From Ceratorhiza oryzae-sativae (Eukaryota > Basidiomycota > Agaricomycetes > Cantharellales > Ceratobasidiaceae): DNA of 64,000 nt. Made by a program: the position numbers and the translations under genes. The DNA lies in assembly GCA_030998015.1 (NCBI GenBank), contig JARWMV010000246.1, positions 744,001 through 808,000 of the forward strand. The letters run 5' to 3'. Each line of letters opens with the position of its first letter. Position 1 is the first letter of the stretch. Below the pieces are notes generated by a model, which had not been told where the DNA came from, ran no database searches, and was given only the letters and a program-made list of their open reading frames with translations. This document shows positions 646-9,900 of the stretch, in pieces.

Positions 646-3600
646 ATGTCTACGCCCCCAGGCCTGCGCCGGCCCTATCTCGGACACAGTCCGCTGCATC
701 ATCTTGCTTCAAACCCAGCATTCGCGGCTGGTAGAAACGCGAGTCCTCCGGCGCGTTCCGCCTCTGCGAGTTTCAAGCCGCATCATGGCAGGGCGTCTTC
801 CAGTACTGGGTCGATGTTGCTCGGCTCGGCTCAGCTCACGCCCACTGGCCACAACCTGAGGCTCCTGGATAACTCGCCAGAGCTGATTCGCGCGACAGCG
901 TCTGTAGTCAAGACGAGGGTAGGAACAGTACTCAGCAGAGGGTGCATCTTGAAGACCGATCACTATCCCACAGGTATGTTTCTCGAGCTACCCTACCCCG
1001 TTTCCACCCTAAACCTCCATCTAGGGCGTGCGCTAGATTTGGATATCAATCTCCAAGGTAAGGCAATTGATTGTAGTCTCAATATACGTGTGTCATCTGC
1101 TCTCTAGGTGCACCAAACTTTAGAGCTCCCCGAGGAGCCGCTGCTGCCGTCAATGTCTATGGCGCTGCTCAGCCTCGTGTTGGCGGACTGCGCGCGATAC
1201 TCGCAATTCTAAACTGCAGCCCACCAAAGACATTCACCGGATCATCTCCAATCGCTTCTCCGCTCTCCCGCGATGCAAAGCTCCAGTCCCAGGCAGGGTG
1301 TGTCTGGTTCTCAACCCGTGAAGGTGTGCTCCGGTCAACTGATCCATTTGTGCAGCACTGAAACCCGCTTGTGATTAGAACCGGTTATCTATATCGCTGG
1401 AAGGCCTTATGTTTTACGCGAGGCCTCGGCTCCTAAAACGGCACTTCAATTATCAGATAGAGCCTCCAATATTGAGGCAATCGAGGATCGTCTAAAGGCT
1501 GATATCTTGACTGAATCACAGCGGTGTGTTTGCCCAGAATTTACTCAGAGAGTTGCCTAAGACATTGTCTAGCTTTGGAGGTCTTCTACTCACACATGTC
1601 GAAGATGGTAAGCCCATCATTAGACAATTTCTTTGTATCATCTGATCGTTGGTGTTTCTAGCCGATGGCGAGTCGCTTATCCCAACGTGGACGTCCGTCG
1701 ACGCCGCTAGTGTTAAGACTTCAAAGGAAGTGTGGTTTGAAGCTCGAGCCGAGGGATGGAACGTCGAGTATCACCGGTGAGTTTATGGCTGAGTCCGGCT
1801 CAAGAATTGTACTCATAACCTCCTGAAGTATACCAATTACCCCAGACAGGCCAATTGAGGTTATTGAGTCTTGGCATTGACCGTTCCCGACGTCGGAAGC
1901 TAACTTGAAACCTACAGGATAACTATCTTGACGCGTATCTCAATGTCATCAAGTCCGTCGATCCTTTGGAAACCGCGCTGGTGTTTAGTTGTGGAATGGG
2001 CGCGGTACGAAGTGCGTTGTTATCCGGATGCGACTTTCGTTCTTCTTATTACATCGATCCCTCCCTCCATCCATGTATTGCAAACCACTAACTCACGTTC
2101 GTGTTAGCCACCTTTGCCATGGTTTCCGCCTGCCTCATCCGCCGCAAGCAGCTGATGGCACGGGGTCACCCAGATCCGTTCGCCAAAACAGGAGCCCCAA
2201 CAGCGGACTTGGAGATTGCCACGGTACGAGCACTGATTTGAACCTACCCCATCGCCTAGCTGATCAAAATATTTGGTAGCCTGCGGAGATCCAGGCCGCC
2301 GTGGCCCTTGAGCAAGTCGAGACTCAGCAAGAACTTAGCAAATCTCTTCTCCGGCTCACATATTTGCTGCAACAGAGTACGTCCCTGGCGATTTGTCTTG
2401 GCCTTGGACCCGGACAGCTAACCTTGGGTTACCTGTGCTGTTAGGTTTGCCCAGTACCAATTCACAGTCTGCGATTGAGCTTCTCCTGGCCCAGCCATCA
2501 TTGATGGACAATCTGCGCAAGGCCCACATGGGGAACTACGGGCTAATACTATCCCTGCTCGGCTGCCTGGAGGATGGGTTGCATGTGAAGAAGCTGGCGG
2601 ACCGAGTCATCGATAGCTGTGCGTCTTTCGTGCAGATCCTCGCTCTAAAAGTTTCAGCTGATTACGGCCTTGTGGACGTTTAGGTGACCACGTTGCGAAT
2701 CTGCGAGAAGAAATTCTAGCGCATCGTGTAGATTACTCGGTGACTAGCATGGACGACAAAGGGCGAAGCGTCCATATCCAGAAGGCTAAGCGTGCAATGG
2801 AGAAATAGTGCGAACCCCTTCAAAGTTTAAGTTTTGTCGAGAGTCTAATTTTGACTCGTGGGGTTTGGCTAGCTATTTCACCGTCGCTTTTGCCGGTTAC
2901 GTCGAAGAAAGCCTCGAATTTGGCGAGTCGTTCTCAGAATGGATGAAGGTCTGTTTCTATTTGTGGTCGTGTGACCGCCAACTGAATGATAGTTGTAGGC
3001 AAGAACCGAGATTTGGAAGTAGGCTTAATTGAGTTGAACTCAATAATCGCTTATTAATTGAATGTCCTGGGTTTAGCCAGGTCAACTTTATGCGCAAGTC
3101 TGGCCTTCGCCTCAATGTGTTTGCACCTGTGGCAGACCTTTCTGCCATTTCCAAGAGCGAAAGCGGGCAAGCCCCCAACGCCGCAGGCGGCCGGGTACTT
3201 GGCGACGAGTGGACAGAGCATGTCGTCAAGGTGTGTGCTCTCATAGTGTAGCTGTGGTTTTTATCTTACAAATTGCAATACATCTTCTAGAACCGAAGTG
3301 GTATCATTTTGCGTGAAGGGTATGTGTCCATCCTACGTACAAAACTTTCAGCTGAATGTGCCCTGCTTTGTGCATTCAGGATGCTCCTCAAATCGGATCA
3401 ATGGAGGTCTGAGTCCCACGACGTGGGTGCTGGCCAAGTACGCGGCGCGATCAACTTCCGTAATATCCCCGGAACAAATATCTTTGCGCTTGGTCAACCC
3501 AACGAAGAGGCCATTGAGGCCGTGGTGTACAGGGTAAAGGAAGATTTCCCCCACATCGACAAGATAGCGTGGATAAATCTTCGGTATGTGATTAAACATG

Positions 3601-6600
3601 ATGATATGTTGGGGCATATTTGAGCGACCAAATTTCCAGTGAGGAACCTATCATTTATGTGAATGGTGCTGCCCACTGCCTCAGACGAGAGAATTATTCT
3701 TTGCGGAATATGAAGGCGAGTTCTTGATTAGATGTCGCCTGGATACACCCGGGGCTAACTTCGTCGAATTAGGATTATGGCGGAATATCTGCTAGCCGGT
3801 AGGGTCCGTCAAATTGTGGCTTTTGAGACTGTCTAATGGTTTTCAGCCTGGAGATCCTTGAGGATCGTCTCAAGAATGATGTTATAGCTGAAGTCAACGC
3901 ATTCCAAGGGCGGTGAGCAATTTGAGTTTGTGTTTGAGACCCCGGCTGAAATGCCTTGTCCATAGTATTTTGCTTCATATGGAGACGTCTGATGGCGAGG
4001 TTGTACCGATTTGGGACGAAGCTGACCCGAAGGATGTCGTTGTACCCAAGGACATAATGTCTGCACAGGTTGGGGACGTTGAGATCGCATACACCCGTAT
4101 TCCAATTACTTCAGAACGTCCACCCGATTTCAGCGACATCGAATCTCTTGTAGATGTCGTTATCCGTACCGACTCTGAGCGAACTCCAATCGTGTTGAAC
4201 TGTCAACTGGGCAGAGGTCGCAGCACTATTGCTTCAATTGTTGTGCTGCTGCTTCAAGAATGGCTGCGGAGCAGCAGGGGTCGAGCGCCTTCGCGGACAC
4301 CAAGGCGTGGTATGAGTATGTTGTCAATGAGTATGGAACGCGATCGGGATTCTGGCAAAAAGCCTGCACCCCGCCATTCGTACCAAATAATTAACAGTAG
4401 GTTTTTGGTGACCCCTCTGTTTATCCACTGTTTCTCATCCGGGGTGTAGATTTGCTCAGAGTGATAAAGCGTGGGCCCGACGTAAAGCGCATAGTTGATG
4501 ATGCCATCGACCAGTGTGACCAATATCTCAACGTGCGTTTTGCTCTATCTAGTCTACTACAGTCTCTCACACTTCGTTTCAGCTCCGCGAATCAATTGAA
4601 GAGGCTCGACTCCAAGCGGAAGATGCCACCGACGAGAGACAAAAGAAACGGTTCATCCAAATAGGTAAGTTGAATTCTACAAGTAGTCTGAAACGCAATT
4701 AATTGATCATGTAGGCCTTCACAACCTTCGTAAATACTTCGAGCTGATTGTCTTTCAGCAGTATCTTATGGAGTCCGATCCTGATACAATCCGCTCATTG
4801 AAGTCTTTCGAGCACTTTGTTCGCTCGCGCCCTGTCATTGCGACCTTTGAGAACGAGTTGAAGGTGGAGGGTGCTAATGCACTCAAACCACTTGAGCGTC
4901 CAGAACGCCGAGATGGTGTCGCTTTCCCCGATGACATTCAACATGTTGTGGCGAATCGCTCCGGCAGCGTCTTGTCGGCTTCGACTATTCTAAAGAGCGA
5001 CTTCTTCTCAAACCTCCAGAAAATGTCATTACCTGAACGCATCGATGGAGCTGCGAATTTCCGTCGCATCCCATTGAATCTCGGGCTAAGCGACGATTCG
5101 CCGAGTGGCAAGTGGGTCTGTGGAAGTGGAATGCCCACGATCGACGGGTGGGTCATCCAACGGTAGTTTTTGCGGACCCAGTTGACATGTGTACCTCATA
5201 GACTTCGCCGAGCGCTCGCCCGAGTGGATGCTGCGCCGGGTGGTAAGAATATGGTGTTTTGGACATCGTTGCGAGAGGCGAGTGGATTAAATTTGAACTG
5301 AAATAAGACAATGACCAGTGTATAGGAACCCGTGTTGTATGTGGCGGGTGGGCGTCCTCACGTCCTACGCCTCGTTGACAGGCCGCTCACCAACGTCGAG
5401 GCTACTGGAATCACTACGGATGTTGTTGAAGCGATGGAGGTGAACCTCAAGAAGGACGTTGAACGCGAAGCCATTGAATTTGAAGGCCAAGTTTTGCTCC
5501 ACGACGAAGTTGAAACCGAGCCCGGTTCGTTCGACATCACTGCCCAGTAAGCCACTAGCTGCCCACCAGTCATGCATTTCTGACGGGGCGCAGATGGGAG
5601 CCGCTCAGCATTGAGGACATACGGACCCCGAAAGATGTTTTCCAGCTTATGATTCAAGAAGGCTATCGGGTGAGCCTGCTTCACCTTTCTGTTGAACGAT
5701 TATCATCTCAAACAGGATCCAGGTTGACTACGCCCGGCTTGCGATTGTACGCATCCACGGTTCAACCCCGCTCCGAATTTGGCACCTAATTTGTTTGATT
5801 TAGACAGACGAACAAGCCCCGCTCCCTGACGCTCTTGACCAACTAGTCCATCGCGTAGAAGCCGGCTTGAAGGTTGCTGGTGACCTTATATTTAATTGCC
5901 AGATGGTGAGCGTCAACTCTTCTTATTGATTCAAACTTGGCTAAATATCGAACGGCAGGGGTATGCTAAAAACAGTGACCTATGCTGAGTCTGACTAACT
6001 ATTTCTCGCAGGCGGGGCCGCACGACCACTGGCATGATAGCCGCTTGCTTAATATCCACGATTGCCAGCTGCGATGTCACGGTCGCCTTGCGGGACGAAG
6101 ATGAACCATTTGCAGTGCACTCACATTACGACACCGTAGACGGCAGTTATGAGGAGGAGGCTTATTTGCGAGGCGAATATAAGATTATTCTTCAGCTAGT
6201 TGGTGTCCTGTCCAACGGAAAGGTCGCCAAACGGGTTACCGACAAAGCGATTGACGCCATGGCCGATGTACAGAACCTTCGGAAGGCCATCTTCGAGTTT
6301 GTCAAAGTCCTATCGTCTGTCATGTTTAACGCTAACGCTTTGCATAGCTACAAACTCAAGGTCGACGCAAGTGAAGCTGGATCTCATAAGCAAAAGAAAC
6401 TTATGGATCTTGGCGTGAACTACTTGTAAGCTATCTCAAACGAAGAAGAGAACGCTTCTGATATACCCCCTTCCCTGTGATTAGGTACCGATATGGAACA
6501 TTAATTGTGTTAGCCAACTACCTGATCGAACGAAGAGGAAATCATGCCCTGCCATCCTTCCCGACATGGCTGAAGGAGCACAGGGAGATCAAGGCATTGC

Positions 6601-6623
6601 TTGGGCGAAGAAGTCTTGAATAG
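646..6623 (+). CDS. Paladin-like protein with three PTP-like phytase (inositol hexakisphosphate) domains
   Basis: The spliced protein is roughly 1,400-1,500 residues and carries three cysteine-phosphatase loops of form CX5R: CGMGAVR near 1993-2013, CQLGRGR near 4200, and CQMGRGR split by introns near 5900-6020. Each lies in a repeat that starts with a segment like VIYIAGRPYVLR or LYVAGGRPHVLRL, as in the vertebrate PALD1 family. Paladins are phosphoinositide-related phosphatases of the PTP-like phytase fold; the fungal function is little known. The start at 646 (MSTPPGLRRP) gives an N-terminal leader before ASVVKTRVGTVLSRGC. Intron examples are 974 to about 1022, then a GT intron closing before GAPNFRAP. 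The third loop is in frame only if a 2-nt exon (5959-5960) is used. The stop TAG is at 6621-6623, and the gene converges on KAP95. Family identification is firm; the exact exon set is by eye. Confidence 0.88.
5959..5960 (+). other. Predicted 2-nt microexon (GG) in the paladin-like gene
   Basis: The upstream exon ends at 5905 with codon ATG of ...NCQM. Intron 5906-5958 (GTGAGC...CGGCAG, 53 nt) and intron 5961-6011 (GTATGC...CTCGCAG, 51 nt, with a CTGAC/CTAAC branch-like motif) flank the two bases GG. Joining ATG + GG + G6012 restores the loop CQMGRGRTTTGM. One intron 5906-6011 would instead shift the frame, and reading on through the first intron meets a stop. Both introns are of normal length for this genome. 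Confidence 0.75.
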
Positions 6624-6942
6624 AGGCTATGTATGCGTCGTATAATCTGTACCAATCTTCAAGTTCATCTGCAATCCTACGGTCTCAATACTGCTATGGG
6701 TTTCGTGCTTCAAAAACGCTTGTCACACGCACGTAGCAAAACAGACTTTTGAGGATTTATAACAATATATTTAGGAACATGACAATTTGGGGGGGGGGGG
6801 GCGCAAAGGCCAAGACTAATCGATGGGTAACCTACCAAGGGAAAGATACGAGACACGGTTGAATTTTGAGGCAAAAATCCCAAGAAATTAGGCGATTGCC
6901 CGTCGGACACTCTGCCAACGTAGAGTAAGCAAACGCATATGT
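6624..6942. other. Convergent 3' region between paladin-like gene and KAP95
   Basis: This 319-bp intergenic stretch must hold both 3' UTRs. The only notable feature is a run of 13 G at 6789-6801 on the plus strand. No coding frame of note is present. Confidence 0.5.
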
Positions 6943-9900
6943 TTAAGTAGCATCCTTAATTACCTCGCGCGCGTACTTGAGAACCCGTTTGGTCTCAGGG
7001 GGAGCCCCCTTCGGCCTTTGCGCCAAAGCGGTAGTGATCCAGCCCTCTTGAAGAAGCGATTTGATCTGCCCCTTCGGGAACAAATCCGCTAGGTCACCAA
7101 TAAGCCCAAATGCAGCCCGAACAACAGCATCAGATCGTTCCTCGTCATTTAGTGCACGAGCGCAAAGACTGAGCATGGTCGGCACATAGGGAAGCAAAAC
7201 ATCGGCTACACAAAAGCAGACATTGGCTAAATGAACCTAAATAAGGCTAGATGGCTCACGTTTGTCTGCGGCCTTGAAGCCCGCGACGATTCCGACGTAT
7301 GCATCTAGGATACCTTCTCGGAGTTGCGCGACATAATCCACCATTTCGTAGTCGAGCTAATGAGTTGTCGTATATTAGAGCAGCGACTAGAGGACCAAGA
7401 TCGGATGTACGTACTGGATTGGGCTGGACTTCACCAGCCTGCTTCAAAACTGACATGGCAGTGTCCAAGTATGGCGCAAACTCAGACCCAATAGATAGCG
7501 CAACATCTCCGAAGCAAGCGAGAACCTGGATCTTGACAGTGCGACTCATAACCTGGCTCTGTAGACTCTCAAGAAGCAGCGTCACGAACGCAGCAGCGTA
7601 TTGAACGGTTCGCTCTTGCAATGCGCGCGCAATATCGCCGATAGTTCCAATAGAAACGGTACAAAGCGCTGCATCTTCATGGTTTTTGAGAGCAGCGACA
7701 ATGATGGGAAGGAATGCATCCAGATATGGCTGGATATCGGGACCCAGTGCTGGCGGTCGAGCAGCGTCAGGGGAGTTGTCAATCGAACATCGAAGACCTA
7801 CCAGAAGACATGGTTCCTACAACCAAGAAACCATCCTCGAGGATTGTGGATTGTTTGCCAGCGGCCTGGACTAGGCGAAGAGTCAAGGTCATGATCCTAT
7901 CTGCCAAGGGCTTAACCTGGCCGCCCATTTTTCGAATGACGCTCTGGAATTACGAGGCTCAGCGGTTTCAAACCTTGAAAGGCATAAGCCTCTTACGATG
8001 ATAACGCTGCAGAAGTTGCTCTGGAGTTCAGCCCAATTCGATCGGTCATCGATATTCAGGAGTTCGTTCTAAGCCAGCGTCAGTGGTAAACATAATAGTA
8101 ACTATGCAAGTGAATGTACCTGGATATTCAAGAGGGTCTCCATCCGCTGCAGCACAGTGAGCGTGATATGTGAGACCGCCCCAAACGTGTCAGCTGCCGA
8201 ATGAGAGATATATGCGTTGAGGGCTTCGTAGGCAGCAGTTCGGAAATTGGATTCATTAGTAGGTCTAAGAAAATATCAGTGAAACTTCTACTATATATGA
8301 TATACAACCTACCGTTCAGTAACCTGCAAAAGTTTGTCTACAATTCCCTGGAAGTACGGCGATAGGGTCGCGGTTGCGGCTGGCTGCTGATCCGGACTAG
8401 GTTCGGGGGCCAGTTGCTCGGCGAGGCTCATGAGGCCCCAGCAAGAGTTTGCAATAATACGGGGTCGTTCCTCCAGCCCAGCAACAAGAGCGACGATCAG
8501 TGGCTGAAGCTGGCTTTCGATGTTGACGGATCCGACAAGAAGCTCGCATATCCTTCCGAGAGTCCAAGCAGTGGTGTCTTTCACTGCAGGGTTGGGGTCC
8601 GCCATCATGCCAATCAAGATGGGTAGAGCCTGACCAACAAGTCCGGCCAGCACGTTTGGATCAGGTCCTTCAAGGATGGAACCAAACGCCATCACAGCCG
8701 CTTCGCGCAAATGCCAATCTTCATTCTTGATGTTGGTTTCGATGAAGGGCAATACCACGGGGACAATCGCATCATCCACAGCTTGAGCAAGCAATGCGAG
8801 ACAAGTTCCAGCTGCCATGGAGATATTCCACTCGTCCTCATCGGCATCTTCCTCTTGTTGAGTAAGGAGTTGAAGAAGAACGGGAACAATATCCCCGAGG
8901 GCCGTTGTGGCGAACTTTTTGTTTTCACGCTCTGGAAGGTCGCCATACTCAATCGCCTAGCGTTCGCGAATATGAGCATGAGAGTACCATAATTGCCAAA
9001 TCTATATATACCTCCGCCTCCTCAATTTTCAAATCGATTTCCTCCTCGGCTACAGTCGACCAAAACTCAACGGCTTGCAATGCAACCTTTTCATCCGCAT
9101 TCCTCATTCCAACTACAGTGAGCTACAGGTCTATTAGCGTTTTGATCAATGTTATGTGATGGAACACCTACGCCAAACAGCGCTCGTTCCATGTAAAATC
9201 CCATCTTGTCGTAATATAAACTCATGATTTTCACGAGGCACTCAAAGGCCCCAACTTGCACCGGAGGATGGGTGCTTTGTGTGGCCTCGCACACAACTTG
9301 CATGAGGTAGTTGCGTTCTCCCTGTACGAGAATCAGATCGAAGTCACAATACCATGGCACATTCACGTACCTCTCGCTCAAAGTTGTCCCGGATGAACTC
9401 CAAAGAGTTGAGCAACGCAGCAATAGCGGCAGTTTGAACCTCATTACTTGGTTCTTCTCGACGGGCCCCTTGGACAACTGCAGTGAGAATTTCGTTGGAG
9501 CGACTGCTGAGTGCGTTCGGCGCCTGTTAAATCACTGGAAATTAGGTAACAACTAATATCACCCCAAAGGGTAACACGTACAACGACTTCACAAATTTGT
9601 CCAATGGTAGTCAGAGCGTTCATTCTCAGCCCGACATTGGTCTGGTCTGAGGCAAAACCAAGCAACTGAGTGATAAGTTCGGGCCACATTTCGGCGGGGA
9701 TTTCGATAGCAGCAATGGATGATATCACTTGGGCCGCATATGTGCCGGCCTTTGGCTGTGGCGAGGCAAGGGTCGACAATGAGTCGTGTTTGACGCGTGC
9801 ACGAGTTTCGTTAGGCAGAGCAAGCCACTTCTCGTTGAGTTCTTGTTGACGGTTTGCATCCTGCCGCACATGAATTTAGCGAACTTAAAATTTGAGGGCC

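Follow-up and report, generated by a model that had tools for sequence, protein, structure and literature searches.

The closest described counterparts of the exon analyzed here consist of a single nucleotide. In the fungal nuclear gene CYP621A of Fusarium, a candidate exon arranged as AG-G-GT completes a conserved Gly motif, and its authors describe it as the first 1-nt exon of a fungal gene (PMC12940212). All public transcripts but one are wrong at the motif, RNA reads back the exon, and its proposed origin is the loss of a base rescued by a cryptic exon (PMC12940212). The locus described below shares the fungal nuclear setting, the layout at a Gly motif and the predominance of faulty models, and differs in that the exon has 2 nt instead of 1 nt and that CYP621A is an ascomycete P450. 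In plants, the 1-nt exons of APC11 and VPS55 are similarly shorter than a codon, conserved within a clade and overlooked in annotation; apart from the host lineage, they differ from our case in that they were tested by constructs, RT-PCR and RNA-seq (PMC4674806, PMC8831610). For APC11, the authors favour intron definition together with stepwise removal of the introns, and the discussion of that paper cites a 9-nt exon of potato invertase, for which the second intron is out before the first (PMC4674806). Fungal stwintrons are comparable as examples of consecutive splicing of combined short introns, but there a splice element of one intron is disrupted by another intron and no bases in between are kept, whereas here GG stays in the mRNA (e.g., PMC9024468).

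The wording "2 nt exon" appears in print for primate HLA-F (PMC7725694), and one-base exons are reported for mitochondrial genes (PMC5436844, PMC12308204). A paper on R. solani AG8 names microexons once, as an aligner setting (PMC4014442). In the open-licence literature, covered by less than a full survey, we found no 2-nt exon in a fungus. Thus, the kind of exon is already known from the 1-nt cases in plants and Fusarium, and the unusual features of this one are its place in an active-site codon and its apparent presence throughout a family.

Gene Model and Domain Context

The exon belongs to a paladin-like gene on the plus strand of the window, that is, the whole analyzed stretch of 64,000 nucleotides. 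The hand-built model occupies positions 646..6623 (ATG at 646, stop codon at 6621-6623) and has 33 exons and 32 introns encoding 1396 aa; it was corrected from P0001, the best match in the protein search, and its exons before 1996 are based only on frame and on resemblance to relatives. Intron lengths range from 47 to 96 nt, with a median of 53.5 (n = 32). The Pfam scan and the first protein search were run with 17 extra residues after the third loop in the model; in this uncorrected model, three stretches match PF14566 (PTPlike_phytase) with E 6e-137 and 452.5 bits versus a cut-off of 27, which assigns the protein to the paladins. Across the whole genome (48.8 Mb, 253 contigs; best candidates scored), all four PF14566 matches fall inside this gene, and, again among the best candidates scored, no second haplotype or paralogue was found, the DNA at 5594-6425 matching itself alone in its own genome. 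The paladin gene is apparently intact and single-copy.

In the model, the first CX5R loop, CGMGAVR, lies at 1990..2010 on the plus strand, and the T codon immediately after it is split by the longest intron of the gene (2012-2107, 96 nt), an exon junction covered by P0001. The second loop, CQLGRGRST (4201..4227, plus strand), is encoded without an intron. Two introns, 3716-3772 and 5278-5325, have GC-AG ends and both begin with GCGAGT; they appear to be used, since they are located inside the region that P0001 matches exactly. Downstream of the third loop, a stop-free, in-frame 51-nt intron at 6297..6347 on the plus strand was identified from P0001; if retained, it would add 17 residues, and annotation can easily overlook it.

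A Probable Two-Nucleotide Exon in the Third Loop

At the third loop, the upstream exon (5804..5905, plus strand, as are all features of this site) ends with ..AAT TGC CAG ATG (NCQM) and is followed by intron 1 of the pair (5906..5958, 53 nt, GTGAGC..GGCAG), the bases GG (5959..5960), intron 2 (5961..6011, 51 nt, GTATGC..CGCAG), and the downstream exon (6012..6296), which begins with G-CGG-GGC-CGC. Hence, 106 bases separate the ATG ending at 5905 from GCGGGGCC. The bases GG provide positions 1-2 of the Gly codon in C-Q-M-G-R-G-R, and this Gly is found in P0001. When GG is included, the translation is LIFNCQMGRGRTTTGMIAAC, i.e., the loop C-Q-M-G-R-G-R-T-T-T-G-M; when it is skipped and all 106 nt are removed, the frame shifts to CQMAGPHDHWHD.. 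and a stop occurs 30 codons on. The expected mRNA junction with GG is ATGGGGCGGGG, and the skip junction is ATGGCGGGG, with ATG joined to GCGGGG. All four other splice outcomes (skipping, retention of intron 1, of intron 2, or of both) lead to a stop 7-30 codons after the ATG.

Enumeration of GT-AG, GC-AG, and AT-AC ends (length at least 35 nt, donors at about 5871-6000, acceptors to about 6079) yielded no single intron that rejoins the frame and gives the loop CQMGRGRTTTGM; frame and motif are restored only with GG, which is flanked by canonical AG and GT and by introns of normal length. The initial annotation had proposed that a 2-nt exon is needed to read this loop, and the enumeration, P0001, and the evidence from relatives described below all uphold this proposal. 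The boundaries and translation it gave for the two introns and GG are accurate, its description of the intron lengths as normal agrees with the range of the gene, and the alternative donor or acceptor that it named as a possible refutation was sought among the three classes of ends and not found. It also placed an exon of this size at the lower limit of known splicing; in the literature, the limit is 1 nt (PMC4674806, PMC8831610, PMC12940212).

When the 106 nt were shuffled 20,000 times with dinucleotides preserved and six bases fixed at both ends, AG-GG-GT flanked by 45 nt or more to either side arises in 0.21% of cases, AG-NN-GT in 1.9%, and AG-N(2,5,8,11 or 14)-GT in 5.5%. The length of 106 nt as the sole argument for two introns was dropped, the same gene having a 96-nt intron. 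Origin of the pair by intron duplication was considered as well and rejected, as the local alignment score of introns 1 and 2 is 7.0 versus a shuffle mean of 6.8 (P 0.53).

The Gly codon started by GG takes the third place after Cys in C-X5-R. Alignment of FNCQMGRGRTTT with FHCRAGKGRTTT of 4nx8_A, a solved protein-tyrosine phosphatase and the sole PDB match (E 6e-4), puts the CX5R loop at the predicted position of a phosphatase active site. Skipping GG loses the loop Arg and everything after it; judging by the alignment, GG completes the third putative active-site loop of paladin. Our preferred reading, to which we assign a probability of about 0.9, makes GG a 2-nt exon, presumably constitutive, that lies between two short introns of ordinary fungal type in a working paladin gene.

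Evidence From Spliced RNA

P0001 (source tag lgn) has 1069 residues and is encoded by a single contig of 3478 nt. It is identical to residues 328-1396 of the spliced model at 1069/1069 positions, the loop included. The matched region spans 4628 nt of the genome and contains 25 introns, and with a coding part of 3210 nt, at most 268 nt of the contig can be non-coding; the contig is too short for the genomic span with its introns and thus derives from spliced RNA. Since a contig of spliced-RNA size encodes P0001 with Gly, the Gly codon is present in the mRNA, as seen at the protein level and in one contig. P0001 and the relatives were compared as proteins, so that GG and its flanks are back-translated, and Gly and Tyr codons permit other bases.

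Another protein with the lgn tag, P0241, comes from an 11,280-nt contig of another species and reads ..FNCQM, 33 residues, RRGRTTTGM.., i.e., it runs unspliced through the GG site, which suggests that no in silico splicing was applied to lgn proteins, at any rate at this site. The tag, in our own reading, denotes assembled public sequencing runs.

The P0001 data also bear on the view of the site as a stwintron or a zero-nt recursive site, where one larger intron leaves stepwise and nothing is kept. The adjacent AG and GT and a total length of about twice the median would suit such an arrangement, but complete removal gives the frameshifted skip product, and P0001 keeps the Gly codon there, which needs two bases beyond that product; we give this view next to no likelihood.

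Relatives and Their Gene Models

Relatives were taken from three protein listings containing the best 120 of 958, of 142, and of 253 matches, respectively, all being representatives of 90% clusters; a search of viral and prokaryote collections for DNA of relatives yielded none. Among the named relatives listed, the closest ones (P0002-P0011) come from Ceratobasidium and Rhizoctonia solani and show 77-88% identity in the C-terminal region. Both genera belong to the Ceratobasidiaceae, order Cantharellales, according to the taxonomy look-up, so that the window most probably stems from this family. Among the best 120 of 958 matches, the loop is intact in 109 proteins (P0001, P0010, and 107 others, some unnamed) and not intact in 11, and all 11 are Rhizoctonia or Ceratobasidium models; none of the 107 others fails at the GG codon.

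Together with P0121 from the second listing and P0246 and P0250 from the third, the models of the first listing make up 15 named Ceratobasidiaceae models, and among the matches listed, 14 of these are broken, split, or altered at the GG codon, as had been anticipated for automatic models. The 14 do not count as independent cases: the altered piece is the same in P0003 and P0034, P0003 and P0087 show 92% identity, R. solani AG-1 IB is the source of P0121 as well as P0250, and identity among many of the R. solani models is about 90%. The sole loop-intact model of the 15 is P0010 from Ceratobasidium sp. 414, for which either the model builder coped or an intron has been lost; an intact protein model does not reveal the exon structure of its gene.

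The faults differ in form. Five models (P0002, P0005, P0006, P0009, P0087) continue with G-Y-V/A, which is compatible with GG|GTATGT or GG|GTATGC, and hence with the microexon read into intron 2. Retention of a 49-nt intron 1 (GTRAGY..AG), followed by GG and by the true next exon in a wrong frame, would fit two others (P0007, P0008). P0011 corresponds to simple skipping (ATG|ACGCGG..), P0004 retains 44 bases, by count, from the end of intron 2, in P0003 and P0034 the four residues ASSA replace Gly, and P0121 has lost the loop. The gene appears to be split in P0246 and P0250, whose first residue is apparently the Met of TTTGM; the unnamed P0252, P0255, and P0259 likewise start at this Met. In P0241, AGGGGT is possible at one place only within 34 residues, which would give introns of 52 and 47 nt; shuffles of its residues allow AGGGGT with both halves of at least 45 nt in 1.55% of cases. 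Back-translation is thus compatible with AG|GG|GT in the five named models, the two intron-retaining models, and P0241; the misread residues and the P0241 read-through fit this layout in relatives, and the microexon is presumably conserved there at the nucleotide level. Taking all this into account, it is very probably real and family-wide.

The same data weigh on two explanations involving a single intron. In one, an intron of about 108 nt is spliced out and the assembly is missing two bases; P0001 would look identical, and the 96-nt intron of the gene means that 106 nt is not impossible for one intron. Yet 14 of the 15 named relatives' models among the matches listed go wrong at this one codon (the assemblies are not assumed to be independent), several of these models are compatible with AG|GG GTATG, and the P0241 contig reads through the site in a manner compatible with AG|GG|GT, so missing bases are extremely unlikely. 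The other explanation is a non-canonical 104-nt intron at 5907-6010 (TG..CA), with the donor G and the acceptor G kept in the mRNA. The resulting mRNA, ATG-GG-GCGG, is the same, and cDNA or RNA-seq of mature mRNA, P0001 included, would look alike in both cases. We know of no spliceosomal class with TG-CA ends; such an intron would require each cut to fall one base away from an intact GT or AG, and AG|GG|GT in the middle of the stretch would stay unexplained both here, where it arises in so few shuffles, and, as back-translated, in relatives. Given the canonical ends and this layout, the TG-CA intron is very improbable, and we retain the reading of GG as an exon between two introns.

Outside the family, the picture differs. 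Of the 120 proteins in the second listing, 45 were aligned, P0121 among them. No loop is readable in seven that are distant or truncated (P0152, P0154, P0156, P0159, P0160, P0161, P0165), and the remaining ones besides P0121 carry it, including Tulasnella sp. 419 (P0123), with CQMGAGR in P0157. Paladin/PTPlike_phytase proteins of other Agaricomycetes among the matches listed are 60-65% identical C-terminally and have the same loop, CQMGRGRTT[TS]GM, but, unlike the Ceratobasidiaceae models, show no fault at the GG codon (107/107 among the best 120 of 958 matches). Judging by these proteins, the microexon is likely absent outside the Ceratobasidiaceae.

Splice Sites and a Proposed Order of Intron Removal

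Splice sites were scored with a leave-one-out matrix built on the other 30 introns of the gene. The donors score 8.1 bits (5906; 24/30 others lower) and 7.1 bits (5961; 20/30 others lower), and the acceptor of intron 2 scores 3.9 (6/30 others lower). With a score of -2.6, the weakest acceptor in the gene is that of intron 1 (AACGGCAG|G; 0/30 others lower); 86% of all AGs on the plus strand of the window score equal to or above it. Intron 2 contains two perfect branch candidates, CTGAC and CTAAC, 17 and 13 bases before its end, and in intron 1 only 4-of-5 matches are present (CTAAA at 14, others at 29 and 33 bases from the end). Thus, the good GT/AG ends attributed to both introns in the initial annotation hold for the donors but not for the acceptor of intron 1, and this weak acceptor, along with the imperfect branch candidates, argues against intron 1 being strong in its own right. 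Skipping should compete, because donor 5906 and acceptor 6011 are both usable. The three exon bases preceding donor 5961 are GGG whether intron 1 is still present or already removed, so that the context of this donor survives.

The weak acceptor, like the existence of public models that do not contain the loop, would fit a decaying or mostly mis-spliced gene, in which loop 3 is often skipped and dispensable. This is nevertheless highly unlikely: the frame is open across 33 exons, the loop is intact in P0001, P0010, and all 107 other proteins (best 120 of 958), and the skip product soon runs into its stop. A working gene with the 2-nt exon thus remains the preferred reading.

Recognition across the intron (intron definition) is the mode usually assumed for fungal introns of about 50 bases. 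Under this mode, the spliceosome would link every donor to a branch point and an acceptor some 50 nt further on, and the 106-nt stretch would leave as two introns, one after the other, since sites 5958 and 5961 are probably too close for simultaneous use and would exclude each other sterically. The 3' region of intron 2 is stronger than that of intron 1, which suggests that intron 2 goes out first and that the weak AG at 5958 would be used next. Only the two-intron path would encode the third active-site loop, skipping or any retention leading to an early stop. The resemblance of AG-GG-GT to a recursive splice site with stepwise removal of a larger intron, noted initially, therefore holds only loosely: stepwise removal is probable, but two bases stay in the mRNA, so the site is not a zero-length recursive one.

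A more far-reaching proposal is that the 2-nt exon is ancestral and Ceratobasidiaceae-wide, that its inclusion depends on a strict order of removal, with intron 2 leaving first since acceptor 1 by itself is too weak, and that, given that every splicing error ends in a stop, the site serves as a gate for splice fidelity or as a switch of paladin activity; taken as a whole, it is tentative and rather unlikely.

Implications for Annotation and Splicing

We found few sub-codon exons in print that are backed at the RNA level; the locus adds to them a well-supported 2-nt exon of a basidiomycete that sits in an active-site codon, and the Ceratobasidiaceae offer a natural series for studying how, and in what order, the spliceosome handles sites two bases apart. 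The relatives also illustrate a systematic failure of annotation, 14 of the 15 named models among those listed lacking, splitting, or altering the loop. As the genes with the 14 faulty models most likely encode it, inferring loss of the phosphatase loop in Rhizoctonia or Ceratobasidium from annotation would probably be wrong.

Sequence Downstream of the Gene

Downstream of the paladin gene, a run of 13 G is located at 6789-6801, where length errors are likely. Further on, minus-strand open reading frames at 7256-7816 and 8309-8956 match importin subunit beta-1-like TPR and HEAT repeats, and represent two frames of an intron-rich gene convergent with the paladin gene.
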